Assembly (NCBI GenBank): GCA_947425245.1
Contig: CANDYU010000009.1
Location: forward strand, 1 to 34,503
Length of the DNA: 34,503 nt
Direction of reading: 5' to 3'
DNA from: an uncultured Candidatus Saccharibacteria bacterium
Lineage (GTDB): Bacteria; Patescibacteriota; Saccharimonadia; Saccharimonadales; Saccharimonadaceae
The notes beneath the pieces are model-generated. The model had not been told where the DNA came from. It saw only the letters and a list, made by a program, of their open reading frames with translations, and ran no database searches. Position numbers and translations under genes: made by a program. This document shows positions 887 through 17,794 of the stretch, in pieces; the first letter of the stretch is position 1; each line of letters begins with the position of its first letter.

Positions 887-2431
887 TTATCGTTTTTTCT
901 TCGTACAAAACGCCCTCTTGAGCCAAAGCCCCAAACTACCCAAACATACGAGAATCGGAATTAACAGCCACCACCACGCCCTAAAGCTCCTTTCGCCTAA
1001 TTTTGGCAATTCTACATCCGTTTCAGTTGGCAAAAAATCTTCACTTTTTGCCCCATTACCCCCTAGCTGCCCCTCTACGGCATTTTGTTCATTTTCGGCG
1101 ATGCTACCTACATTTTGCCCCAGAAGCCCCTCAGAGACCTCGCTAGACCCCTCTGAAGCCACATTTGAAGTACTTACGGTTATATCGGTCACATCTTGCT
1201 TCAAAGCTGTTCCATTCCCCGCACCATTATTCGTACCATTATCATCCATACTTCCTCCAGCCTCATCATTATCCCCCATCGTCCCATTATCTCCACTATT
1301 ACTACAATTTCCAATTCCCTGTTCCAATTCCTTCTTTTCTGCTCTCAAACGCTCTATTTCAGAATGTAATGCCTCATTTTCGTCTTTTGACTGAGACAAC
1401 TCCATCTTAACCATATTGAGCTCTTTTTCCCTATTTTCCTGCTCTAATACTAGCTGTGTCTTCAAAGATTCCTTCTCCGTCTCTAATTCCCTAATCTTTG
1501 CTTCTAATTCTTGTTGAGTCTTCTTGAACTCACTAGCATTTAAGTTGTTATAATAATCTCTCAAATATGCCACCATCTGCTCCACCTGTTGTAGCTGACT
1601 CATTGTCATCTCATCCGCCCATTCTGTATTCGGCAACGTCTTTCTTAACCCCTCTAAAGTACTATCCGCCATATCCATCATATATACCGCCATCGTCAAA
1701 TAACGCTCTAAGTTACCCATATCATTCCTCGTATCGCCCAATCTCTTCTCTTGAATCCCCCGCCATTCTTCCGCCCAACTTCTTATCTGTTCATCTTTCT
1801 CAAACTGCACTGTTTCGCCAGTAGCAGTCAAACGCGGTACATAAGTCGGCGTACTCTGGTGTGCCGCCACATTTGAACAATACATAGTATCACTGTTAAA
1901 AACTGACAAAGCGGCACATGAGCGGTAGTCTAATTTACCTCTTAGCCAAACTTCCTCCTCTCCCCATTCCACATCCGTACCATTTTGTACACCACTACCC
2001 ACTAATACCGCATAGTACAATACTCCAGTTTTATTTGCACTAAAACCGCCATTGCGTAGCGGTAGCAGAATGTTCGGTGACCCCTCAGCATTAAAATCAG
2101 CAAATCTCAGTTCCCAATCTGCCTTTTCACTATTTATACTACTCCACCCCGCCTCCGCATCAGCTTCTGTAAAACCATTCTCATAATCCAAACCAGATAT
2201 CACTACCCTCTTCGTGAACCAGCCACTCTTCAACCATGTTTGAATATTGACCTGTCGTCGAGATACATAAACCCCTTCCGAATGAACATAACCAACATCC
2301 TCCGCCAATGTCAACATGCTAATGTCACTATCTGCCGCGGAATCTAAAGCTACCACACCAGGCATTAATAGTTGCGTTCCCAAACCAGCTACTACGGTCA
2401 CAGTTGATAAAAACATAGGTATCTTTTTCAT
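887..2431 (-). CDS. Predicted surface-anchored coiled-coil protein
   Basis: A 514-aa protein that I do not recognise as a named family. It has an N-terminal signal peptide (MKK, then a hydrophobic stretch to about residue 28), a globular region to about 220, a long coiled coil rich in E, K, L and Q (about 300-375), a low-complexity linker rich in G, N, D, S and E (about 375-475), and a C-terminal transmembrane helix (about 485-505) followed by a basic tail (KRAFCTKKKR). This architecture fits a secreted protein anchored in the membrane by its C terminus, with the coiled coil as a stalk. The start has GAGG five bases upstream of the ATG. Upstream lie AT-rich palindromes and a lectin-like cassette, which may or may not be related. 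Function is unknown. Confidence 0.75.
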   Translation of the reverse strand: MKKIPMFLSTVTVVAGLGTQLLMPGVVALDSAADSDISMLTLAEDVGYVHSEGVYVSRRQVNIQTWLKSGWFTKRVVISGLDYENGFTEADAEAGWSSINSEKADWELRFADFNAEGSPNILLPLRNGGFSANKTGVLYYAVLVGSGVQNGTDVEWGEEEVWLRGKLDYRSCAALSVFNSDTMYCSNVAAHQSTPTYVPRLTATGETVQFEKDEQIRSWAEEWRGIQEKRLGDTRNDMGNLERYLTMAVYMMDMADSTLEGLRKTLPNTEWADEMTMSQLQQVEQMVAYLRDYYNNLNASEFKKTQQELEAKIRELETEKESLKTQLVLEQENREKELNMVKMELSQSKDENEALHSEIERLRAEKKELEQGIGNCSNSGDNGTMGDNDEAGGSMDDNGTNNGAGNGTALKQDVTDITVSTSNVASEGSSEVSEGLLGQNVGSIAENEQNAVEGQLGGNGAKSEDFLPTETDVELPKLGERSFRAWWWLLIPILVCLGSLGLWLKRAFCTKKKR

Positions 2432-11814: not shown

Positions 11815-12153
11815 CTACGCTGTATGCTTGCTCACCAAAAAACAAGTCAAGAAGACGAACACCGCCATCAAAGCCACCGTCATCACATTCATCGTTCCCA
11901 CCAAAATCAGCATCACCGGCCCAAAAGCAATCACCGCCCCATACAAGTACTCCTTCTTCCGCATCTGTTTCCCTGCCATTTTTACCCACATTTTCACCAA
12001 GCCTACTGCAACACAAAACATCAGAACATAAAATGTTGTAAAAAATAACAGAGCACCCCACGGGCCAACACTAATCGGCGTCGTAAAATTCATCAACACC
12101 AACAGAATCATTGCTGCTACCAAACCTAAAACCGGAACCAAACGCCTAGACAT
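11815..12153 (-). CDS. Small multi-pass membrane protein
   Basis: A 112-aa protein with about four hydrophobic helices (roughly residues 6-22, 33-52, 66-84 and 88-106). I do not recognise a family. I chose the ATG at 12151-12153 rather than an upstream GTG start, because an extended -10 (TGCTATAAT, hexamer 12160-12165) ends 6 nt before it and no ribosome binding site is present. The same AAGCTT spacer between the -10 and the ATG also occurs at the gene starting at 11599, so the two promoters may be duplicates. Confidence 0.6.
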   Translation of the reverse strand: MSRRLVPVLGLVAAMILLVLMNFTTPISVGPWGALLFFTTFYVLMFCVAVGLVKMWVKMAGKQMRKKEYLYGAVIAFGPVMLILVGTMNVMTVALMAVFVFLTCFLVSKHTA

Positions 12154-12289
12154 AAGCTTATTATAGCACACCCCACCCCAAAACCTACTAACGCTCAGCT
12201 CAAAAAGAATATCGATAGATCCCCATAAAACCTGACTTCCCGTCAAAAACCAACTAGTTTCCCTCGTCACTACTGAAATCCATCTTAGT

Positions 12290-12889
12290 GAGAATGGGTG
12301 AGTTATCTGGCATTATACATCGTTACTTTGGGCCACAACTCATCCCATCCTCTATTGACCGCTCCACTTATCGTGGGGCACACGTCCTTATTGAGTTTCT
12401 TCATCTGTTTTCTCCTATCACAATGTGCTAACAGAATCGAACCTCAACATTCCTGCAAGTTACTTCCAGGAATCTTTCAGCCTCTCCTACTACTATGACA
12501 TATTCAAAGCCTTATCTATTCCCTTCCGCCATCATCTCGTGCTCAACCCTTAAATATCATAAGGGCGATCGTACAAAGCAAATCCTCAAAAGCTAACAAG
12601 CAAGGTGTACCCGAAGGTCAACCTCCAAGCCAGCCCCTGTTCTTGCGGGCTACGCAATAGGATGACTCGACAATCGCCCAATTGAAGTTCATGGGGGTTG
12701 ACCCATTTCCTTCTCAGATCGCCTGTCAGTTGCATCGATATGATGTTTCCGCAAGCTTCAGGTAATTCCTAAGAGTGTAATTTATGGCTAGAAATTACCT
12801 TCCAGCTCGCTGAAGGAGCCGAAGCAAACTTGCACACATATATTTGTTAAAATACATTTTTGTTGTCCGTGTTTGTCTTGTTTTGGACT
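12290..12889 (-). ncRNA. Candidate large structured RNA, unidentified
   Basis: This gene-free region has a good minus-strand promoter just upstream. Near its 5' end three nested stems can be drawn: GCAAG/CTTGC, CTTCA/TGAAG and GGTAATT/AATTACC. Further on, GGTTGACC/GGTCAACC and ATCGCCC/GGGCGAT interleave and could form a pseudoknot, and ATTCCTG/CAGGAAT forms another hairpin. Near the 3' end GATGGG-TGAGTT pairs with AACTCA-CCCATT. I could not match it to tmRNA, RNase P, SRP RNA, 6S RNA or group I introns. A group II intron or retroelement remnant is possible: it starts near GTGTG and has a short ORF far downstream. The 3' end is a guess. Confidence 0.45.
12303..12404 (-). CDS. Candidate 33-codon ORF inside the unidentified RNA
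   Basis: An ATG at 12402-12404 is preceded by AGGAG at a 7-nt spacing, a strong Shine-Dalgarno site. The 33-aa product begins MKKLNKDVCPTISG and ends WPKVTMYNAR. The latter part weakly resembles the N terminus of some bacterial reverse transcriptases, where an LxxxI...NL pattern precedes the catalytic domain; this could be chance. Its last codons lie in the hairpin at 12300-12350. It could be a regulatory peptide, a remnant of a longer gene, or spurious. Confidence 0.3.
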   Translation of the reverse strand: MKKLNKDVCPTISGAVNRGWDELWPKVTMYNAR

Positions 12890-12895
12890 GTCTTC

Positions 12896-12924
12896 ATCAT
12901 AGCACGCTTACGCTAATATTTCAA
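12896..12924 (-). promoter_or_regulatory. Promoter of the unidentified RNA
   Basis: TTGAAA (12919-12924) and TATGAT (12896-12901) are separated by 17 bp, and TGC precedes the -10 hexamer (extended -10). No gene starts downstream for nearly 500 bp, so it most likely drives a non-coding transcript from about 12889. The palindrome array begins 18 bp upstream. Confidence 0.6.
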
Positions 12925-13611: not shown

Positions 13612-13965
13612 TGGTGGAGCTGCCGGATACTGCCTCCGGGTCCGAAAAATCTCCATAATACCATTCTACATGCATAGTCATTTGTTTCGTCGGCGAACTC
13701 CCATAGCTGCAAATGACAAAACTATGGGCACCCTGATTATAATTGTCAGGATCAGGGTAATCACTCCCGTCACCTTATCACCGTAATATAATAATCTTCA
13801 GTCTACGGAGACTCAACCTCAGACCAGCTTAGTATATATTTCTAAGCAAAAGCAGGTGCGTAAAGCACATGCTTAGTAGTGTTTTTTGCACTTATTTATA
13901 ATACTTACGGTATCAATCGACATGCCTGGTATCTGTTAATAATTCGTCTAAGCTTTGTCAGCCCC
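13612..13965 (-). ncRNA. ssrA: Transfer-messenger RNA (tmRNA)
   Basis: A 354-nt RNA that rescues stalled ribosomes by trans-translation. The 5' end GGGGCTG pairs with CAGCTCC before the encoded ACCA at the 3' end. The T-arm is CCGGA-GGCAGTA-TCCGG, with the unusual loop also seen in two-piece tmRNAs of Alphaproteobacteria. The tag frame (13842-13889) starts with the resume codon GCA and reads AKNTTKHVLYAPAFA and TAG. A clear H-type pseudoknot is formed by CCCATAG/CTATGGG interleaved with GTCATTTG/CAAATGAC. The tag lacks the usual LAA end. A promoter lies upstream and a terminator downstream. The RNA overlaps no gene once comM is started at 14108. Confidence 0.93.
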
Positions 13966-14070: not shown

Positions 14071-14089
14071 GGTTGTAATTTTCACAAAA
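14071..14089. promoter_or_regulatory. 19-bp palindrome-like site before comM
   Basis: GGTTGT-N7-ACAAAA lies 18 bp upstream of the chosen comM start and has the same 6-7-6 geometry as the array at 12943-13134. A weaker match, CGTTGT-N7-ACTTCA, lies at 14022-14040. They may regulate comM and the divergent tmRNA. Confidence 0.4.
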
Positions 14090-17400: not shown

Positions 17401-17426
17401 AAAGGCCACTAAAAGTGGTCTTTTTT
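17401..17426. terminator. Bidirectional terminator between rpmB and RNase P RNA
   Basis: GGCCACT-AAA-AGTGGTC (17404-17420) is flanked by an A-run on the left and six T on the right. It ends the plus-strand operon, and in the other direction the RNase P RNA. Confidence 0.88.
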
Positions 17427-17794
17427 GAGTCCTCAATAAGCCGGGTTTTGTAACTCCTTCGCTAGAAGGAGTTGGCAGCCATCTATCTAGTCCCAAAATT
17501 ACTTCTAGGCTCCAGCGGTGAACGTGCATCCTCGGGCCGAGGTTCTTAGCACTCCTTGCAGCCAGTAGGGTTTGCCCCCAACCCATGTCACCATGGGTTG
17601 CTGTGAGCTCTTACCTCACTCTTTTCACCCTTACTGCAACCAGAACCACCAAATCAGCAGCTCCAAGTCACAGCGGTTTAAGTTTCTGTGGTACTTTCCC
17701 TATCCTCACGGACGGTCGCCGTTAGCGACTACCGTGCCCTACGCTGCCCGGACTTTCCTCTTGATAAATCAAGCGACTGCCTTTCAGACTCACC
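17426..17794 (-). ncRNA. rnpB: RNase P RNA, type A-like
   Basis: The RNA subunit of RNase P, which trims tRNA 5' leaders. On the minus strand it has GAGGAAAGTCCGGGC, AGGATAGGGAAAGT, CCACAGAAAC and the conserved ACAAAACCCGGCTTA near the 3' end. TGAGTC near the 5' end pairs with GACTCA at the 3' end to close P1. About 369 nt long. An extended -10 promoter lies just upstream and a bidirectional terminator overlaps the end. Confidence 0.95.

Follow-up and report, generated by a model that had tools for sequence, protein, structure and literature searches.

What is encoded by the roughly 600 nt of a Saccharibacteria chromosome that a first-pass annotation described as an unidentified structured RNA with its own promoter? 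We examined this locus within its window, the whole stretch of 34,503 nt analysed here, which comes from contig 9 of an 882-kb genome that is 95.7% complete. The description was right: the RNA shows strong covariation, is conserved class-wide and has no match in Rfam. Positions 12888 to 12290 of the minus strand almost certainly encode a structured RNA of a family that is absent from Rfam and present across the class Saccharimonadia. Class-wide conserved bacterial RNAs are rare, the usual examples being tmRNA, RNase P RNA, signal recognition particle (SRP) RNA and 6S RNA.

A structured RNA gene and its form in the home genus

The RNA strand folds with an energy of -195.7 kcal/mol (z = -5.5), and none of 100 shuffled sequences folded equally well. 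The nested stems noted previously could be resolved into a promoter-proximal hairpin (P1), four further stem modules (H1 to H4) and a middle insert (Table 1), and the boundaries given for the region, 12290 to 12889, fall almost to the base where H4 ends and P1 starts. The middle region has stems of its own, in which 12679-12668 pairs with 12571-12563 and 12703-12696 with 12623-12616. The latter is a putative long-range pair (GGTCAACC with GGTTGACC), which is present in the window copy and lies in a region that is missing from most relatives. The promoter claimed for the RNA was also found. Taken alone, TTGAAA-N17-TATGAT is at chance level (1 site, with 2.6 expected in shuffles); of the related loci listed, most have a promoter-like sequence at the matching position.

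Table 1. Features of the RNA locus, in window coordinates
Feature	Positions	Strand	Remarks
Four 15-bp palindromes, TTGTR-N5-YACAA	12945..13132	.	Possible operators, ahead of the RNA promoter
Promoter of the RNA, TTGAAA-N17-TATGAT, extended -10	12896..12924	-	Transcription start at about 12888
P1, 5'-terminal hairpin GTCC / GGAC with A-rich loop (AAAACAAGACAAACAC)	12865..12888	-	
H1, hairpin with nearly invariant AATTTCTAGCCATAAATTACA	12748..12817	-	Module shared by the home genus and one related genus
Middle region, about 310 nt, containing stems of its own	12435..12747	-	
H2, CTGTTAGCACATT...AACAG hairpin with conserved TAG(C/T)AC(C/A)T	12405..12434	-	7 of 8 pairs changed on both sides
H3, GGAC..GCCCCAC-loop-GTGGAGC-GGTC, then near-invariant GGUCA strand	12357..12387	-	
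H4, long rod in which a G.U pair and a GA bulge are conserved (GUUG-YGGC / GCCR-GA-UAAC), with AU-rich terminal loop	12290..12352	-	
33-codon ORF (MKKLNKDVCPTISGAVNRGWDELWPKVTMYNAR) with AGGAG site	12303..12404	-	Overlaps H3 and H4; judged not to be a gene
TATAAT box, about 10 nt ahead of the neighbour gene's ATG (TGTGCTATAATAAGCTTATG)	12151..12170	-	Read as that gene's own leaderless promoter
Neighbour gene, 112-aa basic protein with 4 predicted transmembrane helices	11815..12153	-	Conserved gene, candidate partner

Conservation in relatives and covariation of the stems had been proposed as checks on the RNA, the former also as a refuting test, which the RNA passed. A blastn search found the RNA in 32 of the 35 other genomes of the genus, and the three genomes without a match are only 59 to 84% complete. 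Most genus copies are about 310 nt in length, shorter than the window copy because the long middle region is absent; long middle regions occur also in the two closest species. An exact 20-base motif of H1 was found in at least 118 stretches of a species-level genome collection. Among the 80 matches listed, all are titled Saccharibacteria apart from one titled only "bacterium", and the source names of many point to the ruminant gut.

In an alignment of H2 to H4 from 21 genus loci, compensatory changes were observed at 17 of the 25 predicted pairs. Paired cells made up 96.6% of the total, compared with 84.4% after shuffling and 38 to 51% when the partners were slid, and the covariation score was 0.486 versus 0.233. 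This alignment was produced with MAFFT and not fitted to its own model, and the structure was taken from RNAalifold. The lower stem of H1 likewise varies in a compensatory manner among species (GGCGG/CCGCC, TTAGTGA/TCACTAA and TTGGAGAG/CTCTCCAA), while AATTTCTAGCCATAAATTACA is nearly frozen.

The RNA had also been credited with a 33-codon open reading frame (ORF) preceded by a strong AGGAG site. The ORF and its site exist in the window, but a coding role was rejected since the frame is not conserved: an ATG frame crossing H3 and H4 is present in only 12 of 89 genus-type loci and the peptides are unrelated. The ORF is therefore best read as chance. Between P1 and H1, 90 of 130 genus-type loci contain a micro-ORF, with an ATG, a ribosome-binding site and an early stop, compared with 28.3 in shuffles. 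In 63 of those 90 it begins with MK; MKYK followed by the stop is the commonest form, and MK...ARNKP before the stop also occurs (for example, in L016, L023 and L026). No clear micro-ORF was detected between P1 and H1 in the window copy, nor in most of the compact forms examined.

A compact form across the class

To follow the family beyond the genus, we used covariance models built from the genus (R1), from compact forms found via R1 (R2) and from 41 R2 hits (R3), with E-values that are per genome and roughly calibrated. With R1, related forms came to light in other genera and, though weakly, in other families. At E <= 0.1, R2 matched 156 of the order's 246 genomes, in nearly every case with a single hit and with E-values down to 1e-25, and almost all of the sampled families of the order other than the home family contained the compact form. 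The genomes of the order without an R2 match belong, as far as listed, to the home family, where the RNA was located by R1 or by position; the home-family form is divergent and needs a model of its own. R3 found four genomes of other orders, with weaker forms (E-values of 2.7e-5 to 7e-4). The H4 of these forms (for example, GGGGCGACAAGCGCU...GGGCGGAUUUGUCGUC) follows the same design, and in all three matches with available flanking sequence the same neighbour gene comes next. Three loci of family f41 (L283, L284 and L288) have, upstream of the H4-like rod, a second hairpin that is conserved (GCTGGAAGC...GCTTCCAGC, followed by GGAAGTA or a similar sequence) and may be another RNA domain in that order.

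The compact form measures about 185 nt (core about 110 to 190 nt) and consists of P1, H3, H4 and an intrinsic terminator. Its H3, a short CGCUC...GAGCG hairpin, precedes the near-invariant strand GGUCAGUC; its H4 carries the G.U pair and GA bulge beside conserved pairs, together with the AU-rich loop. One example of this form folds with z = -6.3. In the class-wide alignment, 11 of 20 pairs had changed on both sides and 96.7% of cells were paired, compared with 90.1% after shuffling and 28 to 49% with partners slid; because this alignment was fitted to its own model, these counts lean towards structure. A-rich 5' hairpins with differing stems occur in relatives (GTAAG/CTTAC in many, TTCAG/CTGAA and AGTC/GACT). 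By a lax script criterion a P1-type hairpin was found in 39 of 56 loci, with 27 expected, which supports P1 only moderately as a family-wide feature; many of the stems are nevertheless perfect and differ between families. H1 and H2 are home-genus additions to the compact form, and the middle region was added by the species group of the window organism.

Outside the class, only two marginal and partial matches were obtained in 379 genomes of the phylum (E = 5.5e-4 and 4.3e-3). Matches at this level are expected by chance, given per-genome E-values over 379 genomes, and neither has the usual neighbours; therefore, we rejected them as homologues. A phage collection gave no match to the RNA.

Could the RNA be a known one? 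The Rfam covariance search proposed for it was run with all families of Rfam 15, at gathering and relaxed thresholds, and neither the RNA in the window nor its compact relatives matched any family. The genes for tmRNA (13612-13965) and RNase P RNA (17422-17792), noted before as lying elsewhere in the window, were confirmed by Rfam. These two (RF00023 and RF00010) resemble the new RNA in being stable single-copy RNAs of the same chromosomal block, but they are separate genes and the RNA matches neither model. The tmRNA, on the minus strand, was found by Rfam and not by ARAGORN; it adjoins the RNA in the home family, and neither program found a tmRNA in the same gap of other families. In size class and in the near-universality of the compact form, the RNA is comparable to SRP RNA (RF00169) and 6S RNA (RF00013). 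However, neither model has a match in the genome, and the three separate hairpins are unlike the single rod of 6S RNA. SRP RNA was rejected also for want of a partner: the Ffh M domain (PF02978) was found in none of 31 Saccharimonadales genomes, while the same search succeeded in 14 of 14 control genomes. Since RF00169 was found in none of 40 genomes either, the order Saccharimonadales seems, by these searches, to lack the signal recognition particle. The RNA is similarly not OLE RNA, with no match to that covariance model. With raiA-motif RNA (ModT) it shares the status of a conserved structured noncoding RNA whose function was long unknown (PMC11706538), but there is no sequence or model match and the taxa differ.

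A decayed group II intron or retroelement, perhaps linked to DGR-like cassettes, had been suggested as another origin. This suggestion found no support: no Rfam intron model matched, a Pfam scan of 30 window ORFs detected no reverse transcriptase (RVT_1), and the RNA is a single gene at one syntenic place, which argues against a mobile element. In the same window, a 514-aa ORF (887-2431, minus strand) had no Pfam match.

Our search of the openly available literature on noncoding RNA in Saccharibacteria and Patescibacteria returned no description of the RNA. It is not mentioned in the portions covered by the search of a survey of type IV secretion in Patescibacteria (PMC12102498) or of a genetic study of Southlakia (PMC10633639).

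The downstream membrane-protein gene and the transcripts of the locus

A gene for a small membrane protein (about 115 aa) lies downstream of the RNA on the same strand, at a median distance of 88 nt, in 56 of 56 genomes, a count that covers only genomes in which RNA and protein both passed thresholds and were listed. The protein profile, some of whose source proteins had initially been chosen for lying next to the RNA, matches 277 of 294 genomes of the class, mostly in single copy. Four helices are predicted for the protein (model mean pLDDT of 77), with an excess of positive charge, and no convincing relative was found in Pfam, NCBIfam, PDB sequences or folds. There is one outlier: in lineage f46, 1,353 nt separate the RNA from the membrane-protein gene and another gene intervenes, so strict adjacency of the two is not needed.

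The wider neighbourhood is less constant. In an initial comparison of 20 families, all had an ATPase gene downstream of the RNA, a homologue of the TraG/VirD4-like gene of the window, and in most of them rplT, infC and comM lie upstream. In other orders, neither comM nor the type IV secretion genes adjoin the RNA; genes read by eye as trpS and rmuC are found upstream, and as pheS-pheT downstream. The membrane-protein gene stays beside the RNA in these orders although the remaining neighbours have been replaced. A role as leader of the type IV secretion operon was weakened by f39 and f46, in which other genes adjoin the RNA.

Several observations bear on whether RNA and gene share a transcript. 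An intrinsic terminator was found within 115 nt after H4 in 18 of 30 loci, with 3.5 expected; none was detected in the window copy. A script that accepted TTGAC[AT] with one mismatch, a spacing of 16 to 19 nt and TAnnnT, and that had no shuffle control, found a promoter-like sequence before the compact form in 38 of the 40 loci listed, one of them doubtful. By eye, a TATAAT-like box is present in many loci, typically 5 to 10 nt before the ATG of the membrane-protein gene; a script pattern caught only some of these. The position of this box suggests that the gene has a leaderless transcript of its own. The promoter before the RNA and, in most families, a terminator followed by a promoter-like box before the next gene argue that the RNA is its own transcription unit. 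These data suggest, at the level of sequence, that RNA and membrane-protein gene are separate transcripts.

Possible functions of the RNA

Comparison of the genomes thus reveals, from sequence, an RNA structure under selection, at a conserved place and with a neighbour gene that is conserved as well. Because an RNA is present class-wide at a constant place, it probably does a basic job across the class. For what this job might be, the closest parallel comes from Bacillota, in which the commonest immediate downstream neighbour of OLE RNA is oapA, and OapA is a four-helix, positively charged membrane protein that binds OLE RNA and brings it to the membrane (PMC12265935). As with OLE RNA and OapA, the Saccharibacteria locus combines a structured noncoding RNA with the gene of a four-helix basic membrane protein immediately downstream, and the window copy happens to be of about 600 nt. 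In contrast to OLE RNA, the RNA has no Rfam family and a core of only about 110 to 190 nt, and it belongs not mainly to Bacillota but to a class of reduced epibionts, where nearly every genome sampled has it. The small protein, unlike OapA, has no detectable kinship to a known family, so that the likeness is one of helix number and charge.

By analogy, we propose that the RNA gene would act as its own unit giving a stable RNA, whose conserved unpaired elements may bind protein. One partner would be the small four-helix membrane protein encoded directly downstream, a candidate named from gene order alone, and the RNA would work with it at the cell membrane, as OLE RNA does with OapA. We put this statement forward as a whole only tentatively. 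Almost as likely is a trans-acting or housekeeping RNA that has no tie to the membrane protein and binds RNA polymerase, the ribosome or mRNAs, for instance through GGUCAGUC, the neighbourhood being kept merely through conserved gene order. A copy number of nearly one per genome and, in most of the loci listed, a promoter close to consensus, as in stable RNAs, are consistent with such a role, as are the near-invariance of the GGUCAGUC strand, the separate terminators and the separation of RNA and membrane-protein gene in f46. However, conserved gene order does not readily account for orders in which upstream and downstream neighbours are swapped and the membrane-protein gene stays. Pairing of GGUCAGUC with nearby genes was rejected, as no recurrent complement was found in the loci examined, and the failure of the 6S and SRP models to match anything in the genome also argues against a trans-acting role of those kinds.

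Less likely than either, and in our view improbable, is a cis-acting leader of the attenuator or riboswitch type for the membrane-protein gene, and in Saccharimonadales for the type IV secretion genes behind it, in which folding of the RNA would decide whether transcription passes the terminator. The constant position directly upstream on the same strand (56/56) and the terminator between RNA and gene in many families fit a leader. They have to be set against the promoter-like box that usually stands directly before the downstream ATG, as if the gene were leaderless (by eye), and against the intervening gene of f46; moreover, no alternative pairing between H4 and the terminator was noticed and no terminator was found in the window. 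In the home genus, ribosomes loaded at the P1-H1 micro-ORF might remodel H1 or protect the RNA. The excess of micro-ORFs with a ribosome-binding site and their recurrent MK start speak for translation coupling, but with no micro-ORF seen in most of the compact forms examined and none evident in the window copy, translation coupling would explain a later addition and not the RNA family, and as an account of the locus we consider it very improbable. The same low probability applies to an element acting as DNA (a replication, partition or recombination site), or to the intron or retroelement dismissed above: inverted repeats and upstream palindromes are typical of DNA sites too, but the stems are asymmetric and change in a compensatory manner, and the element has a promoter at its 5' end and a terminator at its 3' end.

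Taken further, the membrane-partner proposal would make the locus a class-wide particle of RNA and membrane protein, independent of OLE and with a basic and perhaps essential role in Saccharibacteria, an apparently SRP-less lineage. We regard this extension as doubtful. If it were true, the particle could have a part in envelope or secretion functions that underlie the epibiont lifestyle, and a true link to the membrane would provide a second, independent case of the role of OLE RNA. For ultrasmall parasites with a biology that is still mostly unexplained, a class-wide RNA outside Rfam with a constant small membrane-protein neighbour is also a concrete target for genetics, which could ask what function fails when the RNA gene is removed or tagged. 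Natural transformation and transposon screens now work in Saccharibacteria, according to the Southlakia study (PMC10633639). The covariance models obtained here could also help to add the missing RNA gene to the annotation of Saccharibacteria genomes.

The palindromes upstream of the RNA promoter are common in the home genus and not evident in other families; we therefore rejected them as a feature of the RNA family. TTGTR-N5-YACAA has 24 sites in the genome, compared with 4 for the reversed control, and further window sites are at 14073, 32562 and 32597. Others lie near comM, an hsp20-like/comF-like divergent pair, the rpsM operon and a ribonucleotide-reductase-like gene (names assigned by eye), so that the set looks like the regulon of some repressor or activator.
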